Of a stretch of 64,000 bases of DNA, positions 3,920 through 16,773 are shown piece after piece. The position numbers and the translations under genes are program-made. The stretch covers positions 62,001-126,000 of the forward strand of contig NZ_WTVN01000007.1 of assembly GCF_012910905.1 (NCBI RefSeq). The letters are read 5' to 3'. Within the stretch, counting starts at the first letter, position 1. Each line of letters starts with the position of its first letter. The notes under the pieces are model-generated. The model was given only the letters and a program-made list of their open reading frames with translations. It was not told the DNA's origin and made no database searches. This DNA comes from Aromatoleum toluvorans. GTDB lineage: Bacteria > Pseudomonadota > Gammaproteobacteria > Burkholderiales > Rhodocyclaceae.

Positions 3920-4021
3920 GCACACACCGACAAACGAAAACGCCAATCATCGACGCGATGCGGTCAGCCGAACCAGGAGATGAAGAGTCCCGCACTGCCG
4001 GATATTGCGTTGCAGCATGCC

Positions 4022-4482: not shown

Positions 4483-5541
4483 TCAGGCCGCGGTCGGCAG
4501 CTTCGCTTCCGCATCGCCAAGCGCCTGCCGGCTCCGTACCTCGGGGTAGTAGCACATGTAGCCGCCTGCGCAGTGGCTCGGTGCGTCGCGCAGGCCGACG
4601 GCGAACTCGCGTACCGCGTGTTCCGGCTCGCCGGCCGCGATCCGCTCCAGCACGCGGGCGACGAGTTCGACGCTCTTGATCTTGCGCTCGCTCGCGCCCT
4701 CGCGGCCGGCGATCTTGACCGAATGCACACCGGCCGCATGCATCGCCGGCATCGCGCAGATGCCGCACGGCCCCCACGGGTAGCCGTTCGGCGCGACCGA
4801 GAAGCCGTTGCCGAAGCGGTACCACAGCCAGCGCTTGTAATCGAGATCGTTCTGTTCGAGCCGGCGCAGCGCACGTTCGTGCGGCTTGCCGCCGCCGGTC
4901 GCCCGCTCAGTTGCGCGGTATTCGAACTGGTAGTTGTCGATGCAGATCGGGCCGCCCTTGTTCATCGGCAGATGCACGGTGTGGCAGGTGCCTTCCTCGA
5001 ACACGCAGCCGTCGTTGAGGACAAAGGCTTCGATGTCGAGGTCGGGCAGCGCTTGCGTGATCGCGCCGATCTCGGCGACGGTGACGTCGCGCGGCAGGAT
5101 GATGCGGTTGGCACCGAGCGCGGCGAAGAAGCGCGCGGACTCGACGTTGCGGCAGGTGGCGACGGAGCTGACGTGGATGTCGAGGTCCGGCACGTTGGCG
5201 GCGAGGGAGGCGATCAGCGAGATGTCGGCGACGATCGCGGCCTTGCCGCCGATGCTGCGGAAGCGCGCGCCGATCTCGGTGAGCGCGTCGAGGTGCTGCT
5301 CGCCGTATTGCTGCGCGTTGAGGACGAGGAAGACGTCGGCGTCGAGGGCGGTCGCCTTGTCGACGACGCGTTCGAGATCCGCGTAGCCGTTGAGGTTGCC
5401 GAACACGCGACGATTCACGCCGGAGGTGTTGAAGCGCTGGATCCAGTCGGGCGGGACGACGCCGCAGTAGAGCTCGCGGGCACCCGCGCGCACGAGCGGT
5501 TCGACTTCGGCCGGGGTGCTGATGGGGGCGGTTATTTTCAT
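4483..5541 (-). CDS. UbiU-like U32-family protein, last gene of the amine dehydrogenase operon
   Basis: 352 residues, soluble, U32 (collagenase-like) family. Residues 171-186 read EAFVLNDGC...GTC, which lines up with the U32/UbiU signature ExF-x5-C-x6-C; the Cys spacing (C179, C186) equals that of the first two UbiU cluster ligands. C200 and C262 (or C259), followed by HSVKIAGRE, match the remaining ligand region before the conserved KIEGR stretch. UbiU with UbiV carries 4Fe-4S clusters and hydroxylates ubiquinone precursors without O2. Here the gene ends a quinohemoprotein amine dehydrogenase operon beside a UbiV-like gene, so I infer a role in CTQ maturation. ATG 5541 has a GGGAG SD; the TTG at 5565 is less likely. 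Confidence 0.75.
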   Translation of the reverse strand: MKITAPISTPAEVEPLVRAGARELYCGVVPPDWIQRFNTSGVNRRVFGNLNGYADLERVVDKATALDADVFLVLNAQQYGEQHLDALTEIGARFRSIGGKAAIVADISLIASLAANVPDLDIHVSSVATCRNVESARFFAALGANRIILPRDVTVAEIGAITQALPDLDIEAFVLNDGCVFEEGTCHTVHLPMNKGGPICIDNYQFEYRATERATGGGKPHERALRRLEQNDLDYKRWLWYRFGNGFSVAPNGYPWGPCGICAMPAMHAAGVHSVKIAGREGASERKIKSVELVARVLERIAAGEPEHAVREFAVGLRDAPSHCAGGYMCYYPEVRSRQALGDAEAKLPTAA

Positions 5542-5623
5542 AGGACTCCCGTAGGGCCGCCCCAAGGGAGGCCTCGGCCCCCCAGGGGGGCAGCGAACAA
5601 AGTGAGCGTGGGGGCTGTCACCG
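5542..5623. repeat. Palindromic intergenic element
   Basis: Gap between the UbiV-like and UbiU-like genes. It holds a perfect hairpin GCCCCCC-A-GGGGGGC (5577-5591) followed by CAGCGAAC and GTGGGGGCT. From memory, elements of this look are scattered through betaproteobacterial intergenic DNA. It could lower expression of the last gene or act as an mRNA stabiliser. Confidence 0.5.
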
Positions 5624-6526
5624 CTAGGCTCCCGAGAGGACGATGCGGCTGACCCAGCCGTTCTTCACCGCTTCGGCGACCGCCGCGGCCATACCCTTGG
5701 CGTGGCGGTAGTACATCGTGTTGCCGCGCTGCGAGGTGGGGAGTTCGTGCGTGCCGGGGCGCGCGCCGATTTCGTTGAAGCCGAGGCACTCGCGGCGGCA
5801 CTTGTGGCCGGGCGAGAATTTTTCCGGGGTGTCGAGCGACAGCGAGCCCATTTTGCAGATGCGCCCCTTGGCGATGTAGCCGTAGGGGGCGCGCACGCCG
5901 ACGGGAAAGTCGATGCCGGCGTACATGTCGGCCGCGCCGAAGGGCGGGAAGTCGAGTTCCAGGCGGCCGATGCCGAGCCCGTCGAGGATGTCGCGGAAGG
6001 GGCCGGCGCGCAGGCCGTTGGGGTACATGCGCGCCCAGGTCGCGGACGGCAGGCGCGGGTCCTTGAGCATCTTGCCGAGGAGCCGCCCGGCGACCGGCCG
6101 CAGGTCGGGGAATTCGCGCTGCACGAAGCGGGCGACGCCCCAGTCGTTGACGGTGACTTCGGCGCCCGCCGGCAGGCGTGCGAGCGCCGCGCGCAGCGGG
6201 TCGAACAGGCCGTCGCAGGCGATCGGCGTGACGAGGCCGAAGGTGAGGTCCCAGCGTTCGCACAGCGCGACGGCGCGGTCGATGGCTTCGACGCTCGGCA
6301 ACAGGTGTTCGCAGAACTCGCTGCCGAGGAAGAAATGCGTCGGCTCGGCGTCGTCGGGGAGCGCGACGTAGTCGCGGGCTTCGCCGAGCTGGTCGAGGTA
6401 GTCGTCGCGCGTGAGGCGTTCGTGGCGGGCAAAGGCCGCGAGTTCGCGTTCGTCGACGAGGGCGAAGCCGAGTTCGATCGGTCGGGTGCCGCTGTCGGGG
6501 GTGGGGGCGTGTTGTGTGCTTGTCAT
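5624..6526 (-). CDS. UbiV-like U32-family protein in the amine dehydrogenase operon
   Basis: 300 residues, similar to UbiV (about 290). The motif FFLGSEFC (C72) matches the YLGEAVC around the first UbiV cluster cysteine. C224, C243 and C247 follow, with the last two spaced CxxxC exactly as in UbiV. All four expected 4Fe-4S ligands are therefore present. The ATG overlaps the qhpE stop (ATGA), so the two genes are translationally coupled. UbiV works only as a partner of UbiU, and the UbiU-like gene follows. Known function of the family: O2-independent hydroxylation. Inferred here: hydroxylation of the CTQ tryptophan of QhpC in place of QhpG. It could instead be the cell's ordinary UbiV, though no ubiT-like gene is near. 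Confidence 0.75.
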   Translation of the reverse strand: MTSTQHAPTPDSGTRPIELGFALVDERELAAFARHERLTRDDYLDQLGEARDYVALPDDAEPTHFFLGSEFCEHLLPSVEAIDRAVALCERWDLTFGLVTPIACDGLFDPLRAALARLPAGAEVTVNDWGVARFVQREFPDLRPVAGRLLGKMLKDPRLPSATWARMYPNGLRAGPFRDILDGLGIGRLELDFPPFGAADMYAGIDFPVGVRAPYGYIAKGRICKMGSLSLDTPEKFSPGHKCRRECLGFNEIGARPGTHELPTSQRGNTMYYRHAKGMAAAVAEAVKNGWVSRIVLSGA

Positions 6527-7218
6527 GAATCGATCTCCGCGATTCTCTTGTGTTCCCGCCCATGCCAGCTGGCGCGGGCGGCGAGGTGTTCCACGAGCCC
6601 GTCGGGGCGCGCGGAGGGAAAGTCGGCGAGGATGCGTGCGACGATGCCGGCGAAGCGCGCCGTTGCCATGCTGGCGCCCCCGGTCGCCTTGGCCGGCCCG
6701 GCGGGAGAGCAGCCCCAGCCGGCGCCGCCGGACGTCTCGCCCTGCAGCAGCGACCACTGCCCGGGAGCGCAACGCGCGTCGCCGCTGACGGCGAGCACAC
6801 CGGCATAGGTTGCGGGGAAGACCGGGGTGCCGCGTGCCGGCGCTGCGGCGACGAGCACGACGCCTTGTGCGAGCACACGGGCGCAGGCGTCGCGCAGGAC
6901 CGTGCGATCTTCGAGCAGGCCGAGGCTCAGATTGACGACGCGCGCGCCCTCGCCGGCACACCATTCGATCGCCGCGGCGACCATCGCGGGCGTGGGCGCG
7001 TGCTTGTGCGAGGCGATGCGGGCGTCGATGAGGCGAGCCGCCGGTGCGGCCTCCAGCACGAGCGCCGCCACCGCGTCGCCATGCGGCAGCGGGCGGCCGA
7101 CCGCGGGTGCACGACGCACGTTTCCATCGGGAACAGGCGCGAAGCTCGCCGCCCGATGCAGCGCGCGCGCAGGCACGCCCGTGAAGCCGCCGTCCACGAT
7201 GCCGACCATGACGCTCAT
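6523..7218 (-). CDS. qhpE: QhpE, subtilisin-like leader peptidase for the CTQ subunit
   Basis: 231 residues, a compact subtilase. Catalytic triad candidates are Asp9 (GIVDGG), His46 (PHGDAV) and Ser183 (TGGASMATA). In known qhp operons QhpE removes the N-terminal leader of QhpC after crosslinking. The region where subtilases carry the oxyanion-hole Asn (AAGN) reads AAAPARG, so that residue is not in its usual place. The gene has no signal peptide, so it acts in the cytoplasm. Its start overlaps the qhpF stop and its stop overlaps the UbiV-like start, both as ATGA. Confidence 0.85.
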   Translation of the reverse strand: MSVMVGIVDGGFTGVPARALHRAASFAPVPDGNVRRAPAVGRPLPHGDAVAALVLEAAPAARLIDARIASHKHAPTPAMVAAAIEWCAGEGARVVNLSLGLLEDRTVLRDACARVLAQGVVLVAAAPARGTPVFPATYAGVLAVSGDARCAPGQWSLLQGETSGGAGWGCSPAGPAKATGGASMATARFAGIVARILADFPSARPDGLVEHLAARASWHGREHKRIAEIDS

Positions 7219-8933
7219 ACGATCCTCAGCAACGGTGCGGCGGACCGGGTCGGCACGTGCTCGACGAGACGGCCGTCGCGCAGTTCGACGATTCGGTCGA
7301 CGGCGCCCACGGACGCGAGGTTGTGCGTGATGACGATGCGGGTGCGACCGGCGAACACGTGGTCGACGGCCCCGATGATCGCCTGTGCGACGGGGAGGTC
7401 CAGCCCGGACGTCGTCTCGTCGAGGATCAGCACCGCCGGGTCCTGCAGGATCGCGCGGGCGAGCGCGATGCGCAGGCGTTCGCCGCGCGACAGGGCCGCC
7501 GCGGAGGCGCCGACGGGCCGGTCGAGTCCGCCGGCGTGGGCGAGCTTCGCCAAGCCCGCGAGATCGAGCGCGCGCAGCAGCATCGGCTCGTCGGCGTCGG
7601 GGGCGACGAAGCGCAGGTTGTCGCGCACGCTGCCGGGTGTCAGCACCGGCTCCTGATCGACGACGACGACCTGCCGACGCAGTTCGGCGAGGTCGAGCAG
7701 ATCGAGACGCACGCCGTCGAGCAGCAGGCGCCCGGCCTGCGGGTCGTAGTGGCGCTGCAGCAGGTCGATCAGCGTCGATTTGCCGGCGCCGGATGCGCCG
7801 ACGAGGGCGAGCTTGGTGCCGGCCGGCACATCGAGCGTCGCGCCGTCGAGCACCGCCTCGGCGCCATAGCCGAAACGCACGGCGTCGAGCCGCAGTTCGC
7901 CGCGCACCGGCTGCGCGAGCGGGACGGGGTGCGTCGGAGACTGCACGGTCGGTTGCTCGGCCGCGAGTTCGCGGATGCGCTGCAGGCTGACCTTGGCGCG
8001 CTGCCAGCCCATGAACACGCCGGCGAGCGTCTGCAGCGGCCCGGCAGCGCGCGTCGTGTAGGCGATGAAGGCGACGACGACGCCGACCGACAGTTCCCCC
8101 GCCGCCGCCATCGAGCCGCCGACCGCGAACACCAGCAGCACGCCGAGGCCCGAAAGCAGACGCTGCAGGCCGCCTGCGCCGAGAGACGCGAGTTGCGAGC
8201 GGCGCAGTGCGGCGAAGTAGTCGCCGTGGTGCGCGCGCAGGCCCGCCTCCTGCCGCCGCGCGGCGTTGGACGCCTGGATGAACTTCATCGCGCGCAGCGA
8301 TTCGACGAAGAAGCTCGACATCGCGGCGCTTTCCTTGCGCATCGCCTGCGCGCTTTTTTCGAGCCACGGGCGCGTGAACATCAGCGCCGCGACCTGCAGC
8401 GGGACGAGCGCGAAGACGAGCGCCGTGAGCAGCGGGCTCAAGGACAGCATCAGCACCAGTGCGACCGTGAGCGAGAACGCGCCATTGAGCAGCGCCATCG
8501 GTGCGTCGAGGGCGAAGCGCTGCACTTCGGCGACGTCACCGTCGAGACGCGACAGGATCTCGCCGCCACGCGTGCGGGCGTAATAAGTGGGCGCGAGCGT
8601 CTGCAGGTGCCGCCAGACCTGCTCGCGCAGGCCGAACAGGACGTGGGCGGAGAGTTTCAGATAGGTGAGCCGGGACAGCGTTTCGACGAGCACGCCGCCG
8701 ACCATCAGGACGAGGAAGGCCGCGCAGAGCCACAGCACCAGACCGACCTTGCCGCCGACGATGCCTTCGTCGACGAGACGCTGCGTGAGGTAAGGCGGCA
8801 GCAGCGCCGCGGCCGAGCCGATGCAGGACAGGACGACGACGCCCGCGACCGTGCGCGCACGGTCGCGCACCAAGGGGAACGCCCAGGCGAGGGCCTGGCG
8901 GGGCAAGGAGCGGTTGCCGTTCAGTGGGATCAT
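7215..8933 (-). CDS. qhpF: QhpF, ABC exporter for the crosslinked CTQ subunit
   Basis: 572 residues, a half-transporter with an N-terminal six-helix membrane domain (about 1-310) and a C-terminal ATPase. Walker A GASGAGKST, signature LSRGERLR, Walker B VLILDETTSGLD. QhpF of known qhp operons moves QhpC, which has no Sec signal, to the periplasm. ATG 8933 was chosen; an upstream TTG at 8948 is possible. It is separated from qhpB by 251 bases of repeat-rich DNA, the largest gap inside the operon, and is tightly coupled to qhpE downstream. Confidence 0.85.
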   Translation of the reverse strand: MIPLNGNRSLPRQALAWAFPLVRDRARTVAGVVVLSCIGSAAALLPPYLTQRLVDEGIVGGKVGLVLWLCAAFLVLMVGGVLVETLSRLTYLKLSAHVLFGLREQVWRHLQTLAPTYYARTRGGEILSRLDGDVAEVQRFALDAPMALLNGAFSLTVALVLMLSLSPLLTALVFALVPLQVAALMFTRPWLEKSAQAMRKESAAMSSFFVESLRAMKFIQASNAARRQEAGLRAHHGDYFAALRRSQLASLGAGGLQRLLSGLGVLLVFAVGGSMAAAGELSVGVVVAFIAYTTRAAGPLQTLAGVFMGWQRAKVSLQRIRELAAEQPTVQSPTHPVPLAQPVRGELRLDAVRFGYGAEAVLDGATLDVPAGTKLALVGASGAGKSTLIDLLQRHYDPQAGRLLLDGVRLDLLDLAELRRQVVVVDQEPVLTPGSVRDNLRFVAPDADEPMLLRALDLAGLAKLAHAGGLDRPVGASAAALSRGERLRIALARAILQDPAVLILDETTSGLDLPVAQAIIGAVDHVFAGRTRIVITHNLASVGAVDRIVELRDGRLVEHVPTRSAAPLLRIV

Positions 8934-8954
8934 GATGAGCGCTTCCAAATCTGC

Positions 8955-9184: not shown

Positions 9185-10282
9185 TCAGCGCTTCACCACC
9201 CGCATCCAGCCGATCGACTGGTCCGCTCCGCCGGGCATCGTGATCTCGCCCTTCTTCTCCAGCGTCTCCGCGTCGTGGATGGACACCTTGTCGAGTGCGC
9301 CGCCGACGTAGACCTCCTTGCCGTCGCCCGAAATGTTGATCGCGTAGAAGGTCTGCGGCAGGTCGACGCGCTTGAGCAGCTTGCCGGAGTCGGTATCGAC
9401 CTTGCTCAGTTGGTTCATCACAAGGAAGGCCTCGTTGCGCCGGGCCGGGTTGATCACCGACGAGAACATCACCGTCGTCGCGTTCTCGAACTCCCTGACC
9501 TGCAGCGTTTCCGCGTCGAGGTCGAACATCGCGATGCCGGCCTTGAACGCTTCCGGCGAATCGGTCGGAACGTCGGTCTTCGCGACGAAATACGGCGTCG
9601 ACAGCATCCGCGCCTGCTCGTAGGTGCCCCACATCGCGAGCACGTCCGGCTCGCCCATGCCCGGCCGCTCCCAGTGCCGGATCGGGAAAGTCTTCTCGAT
9701 CTTGCCGCTCTTCGTGTTGAAGAGATACATGTCCCAGCCGAGCGCGATCACGTGGTCCGGATTGCCGGTCGGCGCGAGCAGGCTGATGCGGCGCGGCGCC
9801 GGGAAGGTGCGGCGCGGCTTCGCGTTCAGGCCGTCGGCGGTATCGAAGACGGCGATGTAGGTGTCCTCGACCTGGTACTCGGAGCGGCCGAGTTGCACCG
9901 GCGCCTGATGGGCGTAGAGCTCCTTGCCGTCCTCGCTCACGGTGACGGCGAAGAAGCCCTTCACGCGCCGCTGCGGCGTCGAGAAATCGGCGCGGAACAC
10001 CGGCTTGCCGGTATCGAGATCGACACCGACGACGCTCTCCATGCGGTTGGTGAGCACGTAGGCGACCTTGCCGTCCTTCGGCACGGAGATCGCGCCGGGG
10101 ATGCCGTCGCCCGGCAGCACGATCGTGCGGATCACCTCGCGTTTCTCGGGATCGACGACGTGCAGGTTGTTCGGGCGCGTGACGGTCAGGAGGTATTCCT
10201 TGGCGAACGCCGGCAGCGACGCGGCCGCGCAGCACAGGACCACCAGTGCCGCTCGCGCCTTCTTGATGGGCAGCATCCTCAT
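9185..10282 (-). CDS. qhpB: QhpB, quinohemoprotein amine dehydrogenase beta subunit
   Basis: 365 residues. Signal peptide of about 27 residues (ARAALVVLCCAAASLPAFA). The mature part is a seven-bladed beta-propeller type repeat protein (YVTN/WD-like blades such as GDGIPGAISVPKDGKVAYVLTNR). In the alpha-beta-gamma QHNDH the beta propeller packs against the CTQ-bearing gamma subunit at the active site in the periplasm. It starts three bases after the qhpC stop. Confidence 0.9.
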   Translation of the reverse strand: MRMLPIKKARAALVVLCCAAASLPAFAKEYLLTVTRPNNLHVVDPEKREVIRTIVLPGDGIPGAISVPKDGKVAYVLTNRMESVVGVDLDTGKPVFRADFSTPQRRVKGFFAVTVSEDGKELYAHQAPVQLGRSEYQVEDTYIAVFDTADGLNAKPRRTFPAPRRISLLAPTGNPDHVIALGWDMYLFNTKSGKIEKTFPIRHWERPGMGEPDVLAMWGTYEQARMLSTPYFVAKTDVPTDSPEAFKAGIAMFDLDAETLQVREFENATTVMFSSVINPARRNEAFLVMNQLSKVDTDSGKLLKRVDLPQTFYAINISGDGKEVYVGGALDKVSIHDAETLEKKGEITMPGGADQSIGWMRVVKR

Positions 10283-10285
10283 CGC

Positions 10286-10606
10286 TCAGTCTCCCGGGAA
10301 AAGCGTCTGCAGTTCGCGCCAGTCGCGCAGCGCCGAGTTCTTGCCGTCGGTCCAGTCGCGCGCGGTATTGAGGCTATCGGCGAGCTGCGCGGGCCACCAG
10401 CAGGGGTCGGTGCAGCCGTAGAGGTCGGCTTCCATCGGCTGGCACAGGCTCGCCAGGCCGCCGAAGGCATCGACTTCCCAGCCGGGGTCGAAAGTGGTCG
10501 TGCAGCCGACGACGCTGCTCATCAGTTGCACTTCCTCGCGGTGACCTTCCGTGGCCGCCTGTTCGATCAGGTGCGCCTTGTGATTCAGGGCTCGCAGTCG
10601 TTTCAT
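10286..10606 (-). CDS. qhpC: QhpC, CTQ-containing gamma subunit of amine dehydrogenase
   Basis: 106 residues: a 28-residue leader and a mature chain of about 78. Adding 28 to the crosslink residues known for the Paracoccus enzyme lands on the right residue every time: Cys7-Glu16 is C35-E44, Cys27-Asp33 is C55-D61, Cys41-Asp49 is C69-D77, and the CTQ pair Cys37/Trp43 is C65/W71. All modification sites are thus present. There is no Sec signal; export is expected through QhpF after QhpD makes the thioether bonds and QhpE cuts the leader. The start overlaps the qhpD stop (ATGA). Confidence 0.95.
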
Positions 10607-12030
10607 TGCAGGGCACTCCTTTGTTCGAGGGCGGCGTTGAAGAACGCCGGATTGGCGAGCGCGATCTCGCCGAAGGCTTCGAGGCCGAAAGCCGTCCATT
10701 CGCGGATCTGGTCGCAGTATTCGAAGGTCGGCTGGAAGGGGTCGCCGGAGCGGGAATAGGATTCGTGGTAGCAGCCGCCGGCGCACAGGCTGCGCGCGGG
10801 GCAAACGGAGCAGGCGCTGTGCGGGGCTTGGGCGCGGGTCATGAATTGCGAGAGCGACTCGCGCGCGATGCCGTTCTCGACGTCGCCGAAGGTCTCCAGT
10901 TCCGAACCGGTGAAGCGATGGCACAGCGAAATCTTGCCGCTCGTACCCACCGCCAACAGGCCGACGCCCGCACCACAGGGCAGCACCTTGCGTGTACCCA
11001 TCCACAGGTCGGTCATCAGCTGCTGCATGTTGCCGAAGCCGTGGCGGCGGCCGCGCTTGGCCTCGCTGATGTACTCGCGGCCGAGCGCCTTGAAGGCTTC
11101 GAACACGATGTCGAGCTCCTCGCGGCTCAGCCCGACCGGCGAATCGGGCCCGGCCGTCGCCGGGGCGAAGCCGACTTCGAAGAAGCCCAGCTCGTCGTGC
11201 AGATGCTTGTAGATCGCAGCGACGTCGGGGTTGCCGCTGGCCAGCGTGACGCGCGCGCCGACCGGCTTCGACTTGTACTTCTCCAGCAGCCGCTTCACGC
11301 GCATCGCGACCGTCTTGTAGGTGCCACCGCCGGCGATCGTGCGGCGATGGCGGTCGTGCTGCGCCTGGTCGCCGTCGATGCTGACGGTGATGCCGAAGCG
11401 GTGCGCGTCGAGGAAGTCGATGACTTCGTCGGTGAGCAGCGTCGCATTCGTCGTGAGCGAGAACTCGACATCCTTGCCCGCGGCAGCGGCCTTCTCCTCG
11501 GCGTATTCGACGAGGTCGCGGATCACCGCGATGCGGGTCAGCGGTTCGCCGCCGAAGAAGACGATGCCGACGCGCTCGTTCTCGCTCGCCTCCTCCATCA
11601 AGAGGTCGATCGAGCGCGCGCCGGTCTGGAAGTCCATCACCGACGAGTTCTTCGGCGAGGTCAGGTCCTCGCGGTAGCAGTAGCTGCAGCCGAGGTTGCA
11701 GCCGGTTGTCAGCGTCAGCACCAGCGTCTTCAGCGGCGAGCGCTCGACGACGCGCGCCGGGATCTCGTAGTGCTTCGCCTGCGGCGCGACGATGCCGAGG
11801 TCGATGAAGTCCGACAGGCTGTCGCACAGCTCGGCCGGGGTATAGCGGCCGTCGAAGCGGCTCTGGATGTCGTCCGCGCTGACCGCCGGACTCGTCTCGA
11901 ACAGCCCGAGCAGCTCGGATGCGGCCGGATCGAGCTCGAAGATCGAGGTCGTCGGCACGTGCAGCAGCACCTGCCGGTCGCCCCGGCGGATCGCGCGGTA
12001 GTTGTGGGGTTGGATCTGGAGCGTTGCCAT
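10603..12030 (-). CDS. qhpD: QhpD, radical SAM thioether-forming maturase
   Basis: 475 residues. The radical SAM motif CxxxCxxC is at C111, C115, C118 (CNLGCSYC). The C-terminal SPASM-type Cys cluster region is [17 protein letters not shown]...EYC. The N-terminal 90 residues look like a peptide-recognition domain. The QhpD family forms the three Cys-to-Asp/Glu thioether crosslinks in QhpC in the cytoplasm, using S-adenosylmethionine. It lies directly upstream of and overlaps its substrate gene qhpC. Confidence 0.93.
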
Positions 12031-12048: not shown

Positions 12049-13647
12049 TCAGCGCAGCGGCGTCGGGTTCCAGCGCTGCACGGTGACCACCAGCTGGCCT
12101 TTCGCATTGAGGGCGCGATCGCCGTCCGCCACGGTCGCGATGACCGACAGGTTGCCGACGTTGTTGAGGCCGCGACGCACCGGGTTGGGGCCGGCGAAGG
12201 ACGGCAGGAACTGGCCGTGCGGCTCCATGTGACCGGCGAACCGGAGGTCCTCGTCATGCTTCGCACGCTCATCGAAGGGCTCGGTGGACCACGTCGCCGG
12301 CACGCTGCCGAGGCGCACGTCGTCGTCGGTGCCGGGCTGCCCGTCGGGACCGTTGAGGAAGGCAACCGCGTTGAACTGCGCCGTCATCGGCGGATTCGTG
12401 CCGCCGCCGACGCGGGCGATGCCGAAAGCCGGCTCGACGCGCACCGAGTCGATCTGGCGATACACGGCAACGCTCTTGTCCGACTCGCGCCCGCCGACGA
12501 CGACCTTGCGCAGGCCCGGTGCGGCGTCGGACGCGACCTTCACGCGCAGCTTGAGCTGCTCGGCGGACTTGCCCAGCCACTCCACGACCTCGATCCCCGG
12601 CCCGAGATCGACCTTCGCATCGAGGCCCGCACCGGCAACCGTCACGGTGGCCGTGTCGCCTGCGCGCAGCATGTGCGGCGTGACCAGGGCGAGCGCGCTC
12701 TTCGCCGTCTTGTCGGCGCGCACCGCCTCGAAGCTCGCACCGATCTCGTCGGCATGCTTCAGGAACCAGCGCCCCGAAATCCGCGAGCCGTTCTCGCTCA
12801 GCGCGAACACCGAACGCGTGTCCTCGTTGCCGAGCCGCGCCGAACCGCGCCACTCGTAACCGGTGTAGATCACGGCGTCACCGTGGCCGCGCACCTTGTT
12901 GCCAGCGCCGAAGTGCAGCTCGTAGCTGACTTCATACTTGTCATTGCCCTTGGCGACGGCGGTCATCACGCCCGTGTAGGCGCCCCAGCCGGGCCGCTCA
13001 CCGGCGACCACCCAGCGCCCGTCGGCCGGGCGATGCTTCGCACGGCTCCAGTCGCGCCACGCGTCGGTGTTCTTCGGGTACAGCGCCGCCAGCCGGCCGG
13101 GCATCTTGTCGCGCGCGATCTCCCACCAGTTGCGGTCGCGCCCCAAGGCCGAGTATTCGGCGCTGGGGAACTGGCCGAGGTGGGTGTGCATGAGCTTCCT
13201 CCACTCGGCCTCGTCGCGGCGCTGCAGCGCGACACGGCCGAAGCTGTGGCAGCGCCCGCACATCTGCGCCATTTCCTCGTCGGGCGGCGTGTCCTGCATG
13301 TTGGGCCGGCGCTCGGTCAGGAAGCGGAACGGCGCCGCCTCGGACGGCGCGAGCCCCTGTCGGTCGGCGAGGTACTTCACGACCGCACGGCGCTCCTCGG
13401 CGGTCAGCTCGACCTTGTGCCAGATGCCCATGCGCGTGACCGTCATGTCCCAGCCTTCGGGCGACTTGCGGATCTCGGGGATGCGCGTGAGCTTGCCGCC
13501 CTCCAGGTGACAGCTGGCGCATTTCCTGTCGATCACCTCACGCCCGGGATCGCCGGCGGCGTTCGCGGACACGGCCCCGGTCACCCCCAGCGCCATTGCG
13601 ACGGCGCCGACGATGTGCAAACGCTTGTTCTTGGTCTCAGCCTTCAC
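12049..13647 (-). CDS. qhpA: QhpA, diheme alpha subunit of amine dehydrogenase
   Basis: 532 residues. A GTG start at 13647 with SD GGAGA is preferred because it gives a normal signal peptide (residues 1-31, ending ANAA). Two heme c sites: CASCH (43-47) and CGRCH (130-134). The rest forms beta-rich domains, as in the four-domain alpha subunit of QHNDH. Electrons pass from CTQ to the hemes, then to a soluble cytochrome or azurin, which is not encoded nearby. It follows the aldehyde dehydrogenase gene by 57 bases. Confidence 0.92.
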
Positions 13648-13704
13648 TTCTGTCTCCACTCTCCGGTGAGGAAAAGCGCCGCCCGTGCTGACGGCGCACC
13701 GCAC

Positions 13705-15207
13705 TCACAGCGCCATGATCACGGACTTGGATTCGGTGTACAGGTCGAGCACCGCCCGCCCCATCTCGCGGCCGATGCCGGACTGCTTGAAGCCGCCGAA
13801 AGGCATCGCGTTGTCGAGGATGTTGTGGCAGTTCACCCACACGGTGCCGGCCTGGATCTTCGGGATCAGGCGATGCACGCGCGACAGGTCGTTCGACCAG
13901 ATGCTCGCGGCGAGCCCGTAGGGGGTGTCGTTCGCGCGCCGGGCGACCTCGTCGAGATCGTCATAGGGCATCGCGACGACGACCGGCCCGAAGATCTCCT
14001 CGCGCACGACCTTCATGTCGTCGGTCGTATCGACGAGCACCGTGGGCTTCACGAAGTAGCCTGCGCCCTCGCCTGCGGCGCCGCCGGTCGCGGCCCGCGC
14101 GCCTTCGGCAAAGCCGCTCTCGATGTAGCCCAGCACGCGCTTTTGCTGCGTCGCGGATACCAGCGGGCCGATCTGCGTCGTCGGGTCGATGCCGGCGCCC
14201 AGCTTCATCCCGGCGGCGATGCCCGAAAGCCCCTCGACGACCTCGTCGAAGCGGCTCTTATGCACGAAGAGGCGCGAGCCGGCCGTGCACACCTGGCCCT
14301 GGTTGAAGAAGATCGCCTGCGCGGCACCGGCCGCGGCTGTGCTTATGTCCGCGTCGTCGAGCACGATCACCGGGCTCTTGCCGCCCAGTTCCAGCGACAC
14401 GCGCGTCATGTTGTCGAGCGCCGCCTTGCCGACGAGCTTGCCGATCTCGGTCGAGCCGGTGAAGGCGACCTTCTCGACGCCCTTGTGCGACGCGAGCGCC
14501 GCGCCCGCGGTGTGGCCCAGGCCAGTGACGACGTTCAGCACGCCCTCCGGATAGCCCGCCTCCAGCGCCAGCTCCGCGAAGCGCAGCGCCGACAGCGGCG
14601 TCTCCTCGGCCGGCTTCAGCACCATCGTGCAGCCGGTTGCGAGCGCCGGCGCGACCTTCCACGCGGCCATCAGCAGCGGAAAATTCCACGGGATGATCGC
14701 GCCGACGACGCCCACCGGTTGGCGCCGCGTGAAGCCGAAGAACTCGCGGTCGCGGATGATGGGCACCGACACGTCCATCGTCGAGCCCTCGATCTTGGTC
14801 GCCCAGCCCGCCATGTAGCGCAGGAAATCCACCACAAGCGCCACGTCGACATGGCGCGCCATCATCACCGGCTTGCCGTTGTCGAGCGACTCGATCTCGG
14901 CCAGCTCCTGCGCGTTCGCCTCGACGAGGTCGGCGAACTTCAGCAGCAGGCGCTCGCGGTCGACCGGGCGCATCTTCGGCCAGTCGCCGCTCTCGAAAGC
15001 GCGGCGCGCCGCCGCGACGGCGCGATCGATGTCTGCCGCCCCGCCTGCCGGCACGCCGGCGAATTTCTCGCCGCTGGCCGGATCGACCACCGCCAGCGTC
15101 TCGCCGCTCGCCGCCTCCACCCATTCGGCGCCGATCAGCATGCGCTGCGGGCGCGCCAGAAAGCGCCGCGTGCCTTCGCTCAGCAGTTGTCCGTGGTAAC
15201 GCTCCAT
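13705..15207 (-). CDS. NAD(P)-dependent aldehyde dehydrogenase
   Basis: 500 residues, the usual length. Catalytic Cys307 (GQVCTAGS) and general base Glu273 (LELGGKSP); the cofactor loop GSTEIGKLV is near residue 251. It oxidises the aldehyde released from an amine by the dehydrogenase encoded next to it. ATG 15207 is chosen because of the strong SD AGGAGA; the ATG at 15246 is less likely. It belongs to the betaine/phenylacetaldehyde-like group, so the exact substrate cannot be told. Confidence 0.88.
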   Translation of the reverse strand: MERYHGQLLSEGTRRFLARPQRMLIGAEWVEAASGETLAVVDPASGEKFAGVPAGGAADIDRAVAAARRAFESGDWPKMRPVDRERLLLKFADLVEANAQELAEIESLDNGKPVMMARHVDVALVVDFLRYMAGWATKIEGSTMDVSVPIIRDREFFGFTRRQPVGVVGAIIPWNFPLLMAAWKVAPALATGCTMVLKPAEETPLSALRFAELALEAGYPEGVLNVVTGLGHTAGAALASHKGVEKVAFTGSTEIGKLVGKAALDNMTRVSLELGGKSPVIVLDDADISTAAAGAAQAIFFNQGQVCTAGSRLFVHKSRFDEVVEGLSGIAAGMKLGAGIDPTTQIGPLVSATQQKRVLGYIESGFAEGARAATGGAAGEGAGYFVKPTVLVDTTDDMKVVREEIFGPVVVAMPYDDLDEVARRANDTPYGLAASIWSNDLSRVHRLIPKIQAGTVWVNCHNILDNAMPFGGFKQSGIGREMGRAVLDLYTESKSVIMAL

Positions 15208-15291
15208 GTATGTGTCTCCTCTGTCTTGTCTCTTGTTGTCATTCATAGGGCGGAGTTGAGTCCCGCCACTGCCGACTGAGCCGCGTGCGGT

Positions 15292-15792: not shown

Positions 15793-16761
15793 TTATTTGC
15801 CGGGCACGAGCCGCTCGACACCGAGCTGGCCGGCGACGACGACGGCTCCCGTCGGCGCCGCGACGACGGCGGCGAGGTTCTGCCGGTCCGGGCGGACCTC
15901 CAGCTGGAAGGGCGTCGTCCCGCTGCCGCGCAGCACGACTCCACCCGCGCCGACGACGATCAGGCCGCCGTTCGCGAGCGCGATGCCCGAGGTCAGCGAC
16001 TGCTCGGTCCCCGTCTCGCGCACCTGCCAGGTGGTGCCGCCGTCGCGGCTTGCGATCACGCGTCCGCTCATGCCCAGCAGCACGACTTCACCATCCGCCC
16101 GCTCGAGTCCGCTCCACAGCGAACCCGAAACGCCGGTCGCGAGCTTGGTCCAGCTCGCGCCGCGATCGGTCGAGCGGAACGCGACGCCCGTTTCGGCCGC
16201 GATGAAGAGCTTCCCGTCGCGGGTGCCGAAGATGTGGTTCAGATGCAGGTCCCCGTCGTGGCCGCTGCCCACCGCCAGGCGCGCCCATTTGTGCCCGCCA
16301 TCCAGCGTCACGAATGCCGTGCCGTACGCACCGACCGCATAGCCGCGCTGGGGATCGGCGAAATACACCGACAGCAGCACCGGCTTGTCGTCCAGCGTCG
16401 CCTGCACCTGCCAGTTCGCACCGCCGTCCGCCGTCGCGAGGATCACGCCGCCGTGGCCCACGGCCCAGCCGCGCGTCTCATCGACGAAATGCACCGCCGT
16501 CAGCAGCGCGCTCACCGGCACCTCGGCCTGCTGCCAGGTCCTGCCCTCGTCGGTCGAGCGCACGATCGTGCCGTAGTCGCCGACCGCGACCAGCGCATTG
16601 CCCGCGCGCACCAGTCCCGTCACCGGCACTTTGGCCGCCAGCCGCGCCTTCATCGCCGGCGCCGGCACCTTCGCCGCATCGGCCGGCGCCGCCGCAAACA
16701 CCGTGGCGCTCGCCGCCAGGCACAGGCCGAGCAGGGTCCGCCCGATTTGCATGGATTTCAT
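15793..16761 (-). CDS. YCF48/BNR-like exported beta-propeller protein
   Basis: 322 residues. Signal peptide of about 30 residues. Repeated BNR/Asp-box motifs (STDEGRTW, TADGGANW, TLDGGHKW, STDRGASW, SRDGGTTW) at spacings of about 40 residues, as in photosystem assembly factor Ycf48 and bacterial relatives. Such genes are commonly found next to RND exporters of the MMPL type with DUF1302 and DUF1329 genes, as here. ATG 16761 has SD AGGGG; the gap to the RND gene is 12 bases. Confidence 0.8.
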   Translation of the reverse strand: MKSMQIGRTLLGLCLAASATVFAAAPADAAKVPAPAMKARLAAKVPVTGLVRAGNALVAVGDYGTIVRSTDEGRTWQQAEVPVSALLTAVHFVDETRGWAVGHGGVILATADGGANWQVQATLDDKPVLLSVYFADPQRGYAVGAYGTAFVTLDGGHKWARLAVGSGHDGDLHLNHIFGTRDGKLFIAAETGVAFRSTDRGASWTKLATGVSGSLWSGLERADGEVVLLGMSGRVIASRDGGTTWQVRETGTEQSLTSGIALANGGLIVVGAGGVVLRGSGTTPFQLEVRPDRQNLAAVVAAPTGAVVVAGQLGVERLVPGK

Positions 16762-16773
16762 GTCGGGCACCCC

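Follow-up and report, generated by a model that had tools for sequence, protein, structure and literature searches.

A UbiU/UbiV-like gene pair in a quinohemoprotein amine dehydrogenase operon of Aromatoleum toluvorans: a candidate O2-independent replacement for QhpG in CTQ formation

Known routes to tryptophylquinones and known U32 hydroxylases

MauG and LodB/GoxB, which make other tryptophylquinones, convert peptidyl tryptophan to a quinone cofactor, as we propose below for a gene pair of the U32 type; they are diheme or flavin enzymes that use O2 or peroxide and have no relation to U32. To our knowledge, the known routes to a tryptophylquinone cofactor other than that of QhpG all use O2 or peroxide. 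For CTQ, the tryptophylquinone borne by the quinohemoprotein amine dehydrogenase subunit QhpC, the relevant parts of PMC7876137 describe QhpG as adding two oxygens, drawn from O2 and not from water, to the tryptophan of QhpD-crosslinked QhpC, and report that the quinone is missing in a qhpG mutant. Cells that live without O2 must accordingly form CTQ in some other way, given this requirement for QhpG and the O2 origin of the oxygens.

Hydroxylation without O2 is known from the U32 family. The UbiU-UbiV heterodimer, which bears [4Fe-4S] clusters, carries out hydroxylation in the absence of O2, and C169, C176, C193, and C232 are the cluster ligands of UbiU (sections of PMC6747719); prephenate has been reported as the oxygen source for U32 hydroxylases (a review, PMC11574389, cited here for its passages on these enzymes). 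The same review passages cover two further U32 proteins, TrhP and RlhA, whose O2-independent hydroxylation and dependence on prephenate the pair described here may share, and which differ from it in acting on RNA.

The qhp operon and its two U32-type proteins

The window analyzed here is a 64,000-nt stretch of the Aromatoleum toluvorans contig NZ_WTVN01000007.1, from a draft genome (4.8 Mb, 117 contigs) rated 100% complete. Between 15246 and 4483, the minus strand carries, in reading order, an aldehyde dehydrogenase, qhpA, qhpD, qhpC, qhpB, an ABC transporter at the qhpF position, qhpE, U32a, and U32b (Table 1). The qhpA, B, C, D, and E genes lie in a single run and each scores above its NCBIfam cut-off, which identifies a qhp operon, and qhpG is absent from it. 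The initial annotation had placed two U32-type genes after qhpE at the end of this operon, the first with an ATGA overlap, and both points were confirmed: the ATG of U32a overlaps the TGA of qhpE, while U32b starts at the ATG at 5541, 82 nt past the U32a stop. Between positions 4000 and 16000, a pattern scan detected 8 terminator-like sites (6.2 expected) and no sigma-70-like promoter. All eight loci with a named relative of U32a (87-94% identity) belonged to Aromatoleum or Azoarcus. Upstream of the operon lies a Ycf48-like (PSII_BNR) gene (15793-16770, minus strand).

Table 1. Features of the qhp operon in the window
Feature	Position	Strand	Basis
U32b, UbiU-like, 352 aa, candidate catalytic subunit	4483..5541	-	PF01136 141 bits; UbiU profile 99.6%; nine invariant Cys 18/18
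U32a, UbiV-like, 300 aa, candidate partner subunit	5624..6526	-	C72, C224, C243, C247 invariant 18/18; no family model
qhpE, leader protease, start codon uncertain	6523..7215	-	NF049966 232.9 bits, above cut-off
ABC transporter at qhpF position	7215..8948	-	ABC_membrane + ABC_tran; place in operon
qhpB, beta subunit	9185..10282	-	TIGR03907 507 bits
qhpC, gamma subunit bearing CTQ, proposed substrate	10286..10606	-	NF037958 158 bits; CTDPCWW motif; analyzed stretch started at 10600
qhpD, radical SAM thioether-forming maturase	10603..12030	-	TIGR03906 743 bits
qhpA, diheme alpha subunit	12049..13704	-	TIGR03908 719.5 bits
Aldehyde dehydrogenase, phenylacetaldehyde dehydrogenase-like	13705..15246	-	NF045735 750 bits, below cut-off of 850

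U32b belongs to the U32 family, with a score against PF01136 (Peptidase_U32) far above the cut-off of 22.4 bits; the diverged copy of U32b in locus L125 reached 83.6 bits. It is not a member of UbiU as modeled by NF047963 (74.8 bits, cut-off 440), and it scored 64 bits to the TrhP model (cut-off 534), with the profile comparison to UbiU returning the probability given in Table 1. For each of the two proteins, we aligned 18 hand-picked, spread-out representatives, the window's own sequence included. C179, C186, C200, and C262 of U32b, already singled out in the initial annotation, are invariant in all 18, as are C26, C130, C259, C324, and C330; read by eye, all nine are retained in both strongly diverged copies. 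The E-x-F-x5-C-x6-C signature, correctly noted before, is that of UbiU, and C179, C186, and C200, together with C259 or C262, would suit the ligand positions given for UbiU in the sections of PMC6747719 cited above. Four cysteines are expected as UbiU-type ligands, and the other five invariant ones perhaps hold a second cluster.

The Pfam name of the family invites the reading that the pair are peptidases processing QhpC or other amine-metabolism proteins. The known QhpC protease, qhpE, is in the same operon, and the four-cysteine motifs of the pair resemble those of U32 oxidases (as far as PMC6747719 and PMC11574389 describe them); we rejected a peptidase role on these grounds and consider it highly improbable.

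In a 53-row tree, U32b (28 rows) separates from UbiU (21), TrhP (2), and RlhA (2) with support of 100/100, and UbiU forms a group with support of 95/79. The similarity of U32b to UbiU and the likeness of the cysteine motifs could also point to the pair as an additional UbiU/UbiV copy that serves anaerobic ubiquinone synthesis and is present in the operon by chance. This is already contradicted by a separate UbiU-UbiV pair elsewhere in the same genome, on contig C84, whose proteins are 58% (UbiU) and 40% (UbiV) identical to those of E. coli. With the genome's own UbiV as the query, 20 of 24 searched genomes gave a match, among them every one of the 19 from the family. With U32b forming a clade of its own that was not found in 340 relatives lacking qhpC, we rejected an extra ubiquinone pair as an explanation, and rate it the least credible of the readings weighed here. 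The outcome that the initial annotation named as refuting, clustering inside true UbiU/UbiV in a genome with no other ubiUV, was not seen for U32b.

U32a is more difficult to place. Its C72, C224, C243, and C247 are where the initial annotation put them, and its possible UbiV kinship draws on this four-cysteine pattern; the profile and fold comparisons to UbiV were not significant. No Pfam or NCBIfam model matched U32a. A scan of the 18 aligned members gave at most stray non-U32 matches (best E 0.005) and none to the U32 family (PF01136), and the diverged copies in loci L112 and L125 were likewise without a U32 match. Against the UbiV profile, U32a reached a non-significant probability of 2.6% (E 0.017), or 2.4% (E 0.019) with more rows, and with more rows the UbiU profile scored slightly better (8.4%, E 0.004). 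The match to the U32b profile was moderate (79-88%, E 1.5e-5 and 2.8e-6), as opposed to E 0.047 or worse for five unrelated qhp families used as controls, and U32a is therefore probably a very diverged U32 protein. Where UbiV has the spacing CXnCX12CX3C, the X12 gap is X18 in U32a; in a forced full-length alignment, without significance, all four U32a cysteines fall on those of UbiV.

Structure prediction for the pair, with the window's sequences and those of close relatives (87-95% alike) as input, gave poor folds (pLDDT 56.5 and 48.1). A fold search with these models returned no match at E 0.001, a U32 structure (5d88) ranking eighth at E 0.026, and a sequence search with the pair found no credible relative of solved structure.

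Distribution of the pair relative to qhpC and QhpG

In a draw of 395 genomes from the family, the QhpC model found 63 loci above its cut-off in 55 genomes; we fetched 60 of these loci first and two later, the last being the window itself. A U32 match lay within 28 of the 60 loci fetched first. Searched with the U32b profile at E 1e-40, 37 of the 395 genomes matched; all 37 carry qhpC, and none of the 340 genomes without qhpC matched. Given this absence, and the recurrence of the pair near diverged qhp operons, the placement of the U32 pair in the qhp operon is far beyond chance. Of the 50 fetched stretches holding U32b, all but one (49) contained U32a too. The matches in two of the 37 genomes were partial, one with U32a adjacent (G610) and one without it (G537). 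The latter, the sole exception among the 50 stretches, is a short U32b by a contig end (L117:4222-4998) in a genome that has QhpG, and is possibly decaying. In seven genomes (G377, G463, G405, G668, G416, G471, and G657), U32b lay outside the qhp stretch first fetched, with U32a adjoining and an aldehyde dehydrogenase within ~4 kb.

QhpG was identified with NF049967 (552 bits) and PDB 7ctq (454 bits), and a whole-genome search placed it above its cut-off in 29 of the 55 qhpC genomes, in two of them (G537 and G471) as parts at contig ends. Of the 55, 17 had QhpG without U32b, 25 had U32b without QhpG, 12 had both, and one had neither (18, 25, 11, and 1 if G537 is counted as U32b-negative), giving a Fisher p of 1e-5 with genomes taken as independent, though they are not. 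The mutual exclusion anticipated between QhpG and the pair thus holds as complementarity and not as a strict rule. Since 12 of the 55 genomes hold both systems, the pair cannot be read as a mere stand-in for QhpG. G702, the single genome with neither, is split into 680 contigs; its contig ends short of the position, ~13 kb from qhpC, at which the sister genome G668 has the pair, and it is therefore possible that the pair is missing from G702 through an assembly gap. As for the window's own genome, we rejected a QhpG encoded away from the operon, which the initial annotation had listed as a possible refutation, on a best whole-genome match of 52 bits against a cut-off of 240.

In the draw from the phylum, qhpC was found in 7 of 344 genomes, and the six besides the window's own all had QhpG and lacked U32a. 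U32b matched 169 of the 399 genomes drawn from the order at E 1e-20, of which only G000 (596 bits) and G1369 (264 bits) exceeded 90 bits; the remaining matches score as UbiU and TrhP would be expected to. A noisy class-wide qhpD search placed 2 of 369 genomes above the cut-off, the window's own included. In G1369, the qhp operon is deeply diverged and includes the pair, with no QhpG, and G610 has a diverged locus like it, in which qhpA, qhpC, and qhpD alone were detected. The pair is thus present in both strongly diverged qhp operons (23-38% identity), with no QhpG above the cut-off. In these diverged operons (L112 and L125), QhpC is 37-38% and QhpD 34% identical to that of the window, and the CTQ motif and the U32 pair are kept. 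G468 has two qhp loci with the pair in each, and QhpG also in one.

As a control on the neighborhood, we compared open frames of at least 130 codons outside the qhp genes between 24 U32-only and 26 QhpG-only loci, within the stretches fetched around them. U32b occurred in 24/24 and 0/26, respectively, which holds by construction, since the labels were set by U32b; it lay within the qhp stretch in 18 of the 24 and in a companion stretch fetched for U32b in the other 6. U32a was also present in all 24. The next-best frames (20 to 23 of 24) overlap the U32 genes on the opposite strand, and no non-U32 neighbor family was found in all 24. The best frames not overlapping the U32 genes occurred in 18 or 19 of 24 and 0 of 26 loci, and those examined encode an MMPL transporter and DUF1302 proteins; a Ycf48-like gene next to these occurred in 14/24 and 0/26. 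Judged by the protein families encoded, this cluster is a weaker companion of the U32-only loci, of envelope and transport type, and the parts examined include no known hydroxylase. Absences in this comparison carry less weight for the several stretches that run into a contig end.

We rejected another conserved neighbor as the QhpG replacement, as the best non-U32 cluster reached at most 19 of 24 loci and looks like envelope and transport genes. The control also bears on whether the pair might be an accessory of QhpC maturation, acting in cluster repair, as a chaperone, as an electron donor, or in another modification, with an unlinked oxygenase or self-catalysis making the quinone. The genomes that keep QhpG beside the pair would fit such a role, as would the fact that the gene comparison was confined to stretches near the operons. 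On the other hand, no other family shares the 24/24 distribution, the nearest being the envelope and transport genes, and complementarity to QhpG is not expected of an accessory. We regard an accessory role as unlikely, albeit the most serious of the alternatives.

On a tree of 71 QhpD proteins (INDEPENDENCE), we read U32-only operons in at least five separate places. The system label requires 10 changes on this tree, at least 8 of them forced by well-supported branches, with gains and losses indistinguishable owing to the midpoint root and some long branches. All 71 QhpC sequences, across all groups and with either system, retain the four cysteines and the WW, and 69 share some acidic and aromatic positions. 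From this constancy of the substrate, the two systems seem to make the same cofactor.

A proposed O2-independent route to CTQ

The proposal that the U32 pair replaces QhpG, made in the initial annotation, drew support from the genomic tests of distribution, phylogeny, and motifs. As UbiU-UbiV hydroxylates without O2 while QhpG uses O2, the pair is best read as an O2-independent QhpG replacement, and we think it probable, on this comparative evidence, that it serves as a peptidyl-tryptophan hydroxylase for CTQ formation. That it would be the first U32 oxidase to act on a protein, as an O2-independent peptidyl-tryptophan dihydroxylase with prephenate as the probable oxygen donor, we hold with somewhat less assurance, as a fairly likely refinement.

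In the proposed mechanism, QhpD would crosslink QhpC, with QhpD and QhpE presumably working as in known systems. U32a and U32b would form a heterodimeric iron-sulfur U32 oxidase with [4Fe-4S] clusters, devoted to QhpC, which would add both oxygen atoms, without O2, to the tryptophan that is the CTQ precursor in the crosslinked protein; its nine invariant cysteines would allow U32b a cluster beyond the known one of UbiU. The oxygen donor may be prephenate, as proposed for other U32 oxidases. The pair would stand in for the FAD monooxygenase QhpG where this is missing and back it up where both exist, with QhpG then serving in the presence of air and the pair in its absence, as described for ubiquinone synthesis.

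Compared to UbiU-UbiV, the pair likewise comprises two adjacent genes, with the UbiU signature shared by U32b, the CXnC...CX3C pattern of UbiV shared by U32a, and U32a cysteines that resemble the cluster ligands of UbiV (as given in PMC6747719), and would presumably share O2-independent aromatic hydroxylation. It differs in the separate clade and additional invariant cysteines of U32b, in the lack of significant similarity between U32a and UbiV, in its association with qhpC, and in gene order (V-like then U-like). With QhpG, an FAD peptidyl-tryptophan dihydroxylase (PDB 7ctq), it would share the same reaction on the same protein substrate; QhpG belongs to an unrelated protein family and uses O2.

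The pair offers a direct, testable answer to how anoxic amine degraders would make CTQ. The denitrifier A. aromaticum EbN1 is said, in the title of a 2019 J Bacteriol paper by Schmitt et al., to start anaerobic amine degradation with two quinohemoprotein amine dehydrogenases. The main text of PMC9765128, on the same strain, makes no mention of qhp, quinohemoprotein, amine, or U32, and in the open literature, a scope that leaves out most subscription journals and bioRxiv, we found no paper joining U32 to CTQ or tryptophylquinone. If the proposal is true, the making of a tryptophylquinone cofactor would not depend on O2, proteins would join quinone precursors and RNA as substrates of U32 oxidases, and a defined peptide substrate would be at hand for studying the poorly understood U32 chemistry.

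We did note some QhpG genes apart from qhp operons. In the window's genus, the genomes G412, G581, and G535 each have a QhpG gene (L120:7709-9100, L121 at ~8697, and L123 at ~8639, respectively) with no qhp gene detected around it in the fetched stretch; in the qhp operons of these three genomes, the U32 pair is present instead. Another genome (G667:C13:634733-640958) combines a weak match to QhpC (23.8 bits) with a distant match to QhpG (103 bits) ~5 kb away, possibly marking another tryptophylquinone system.
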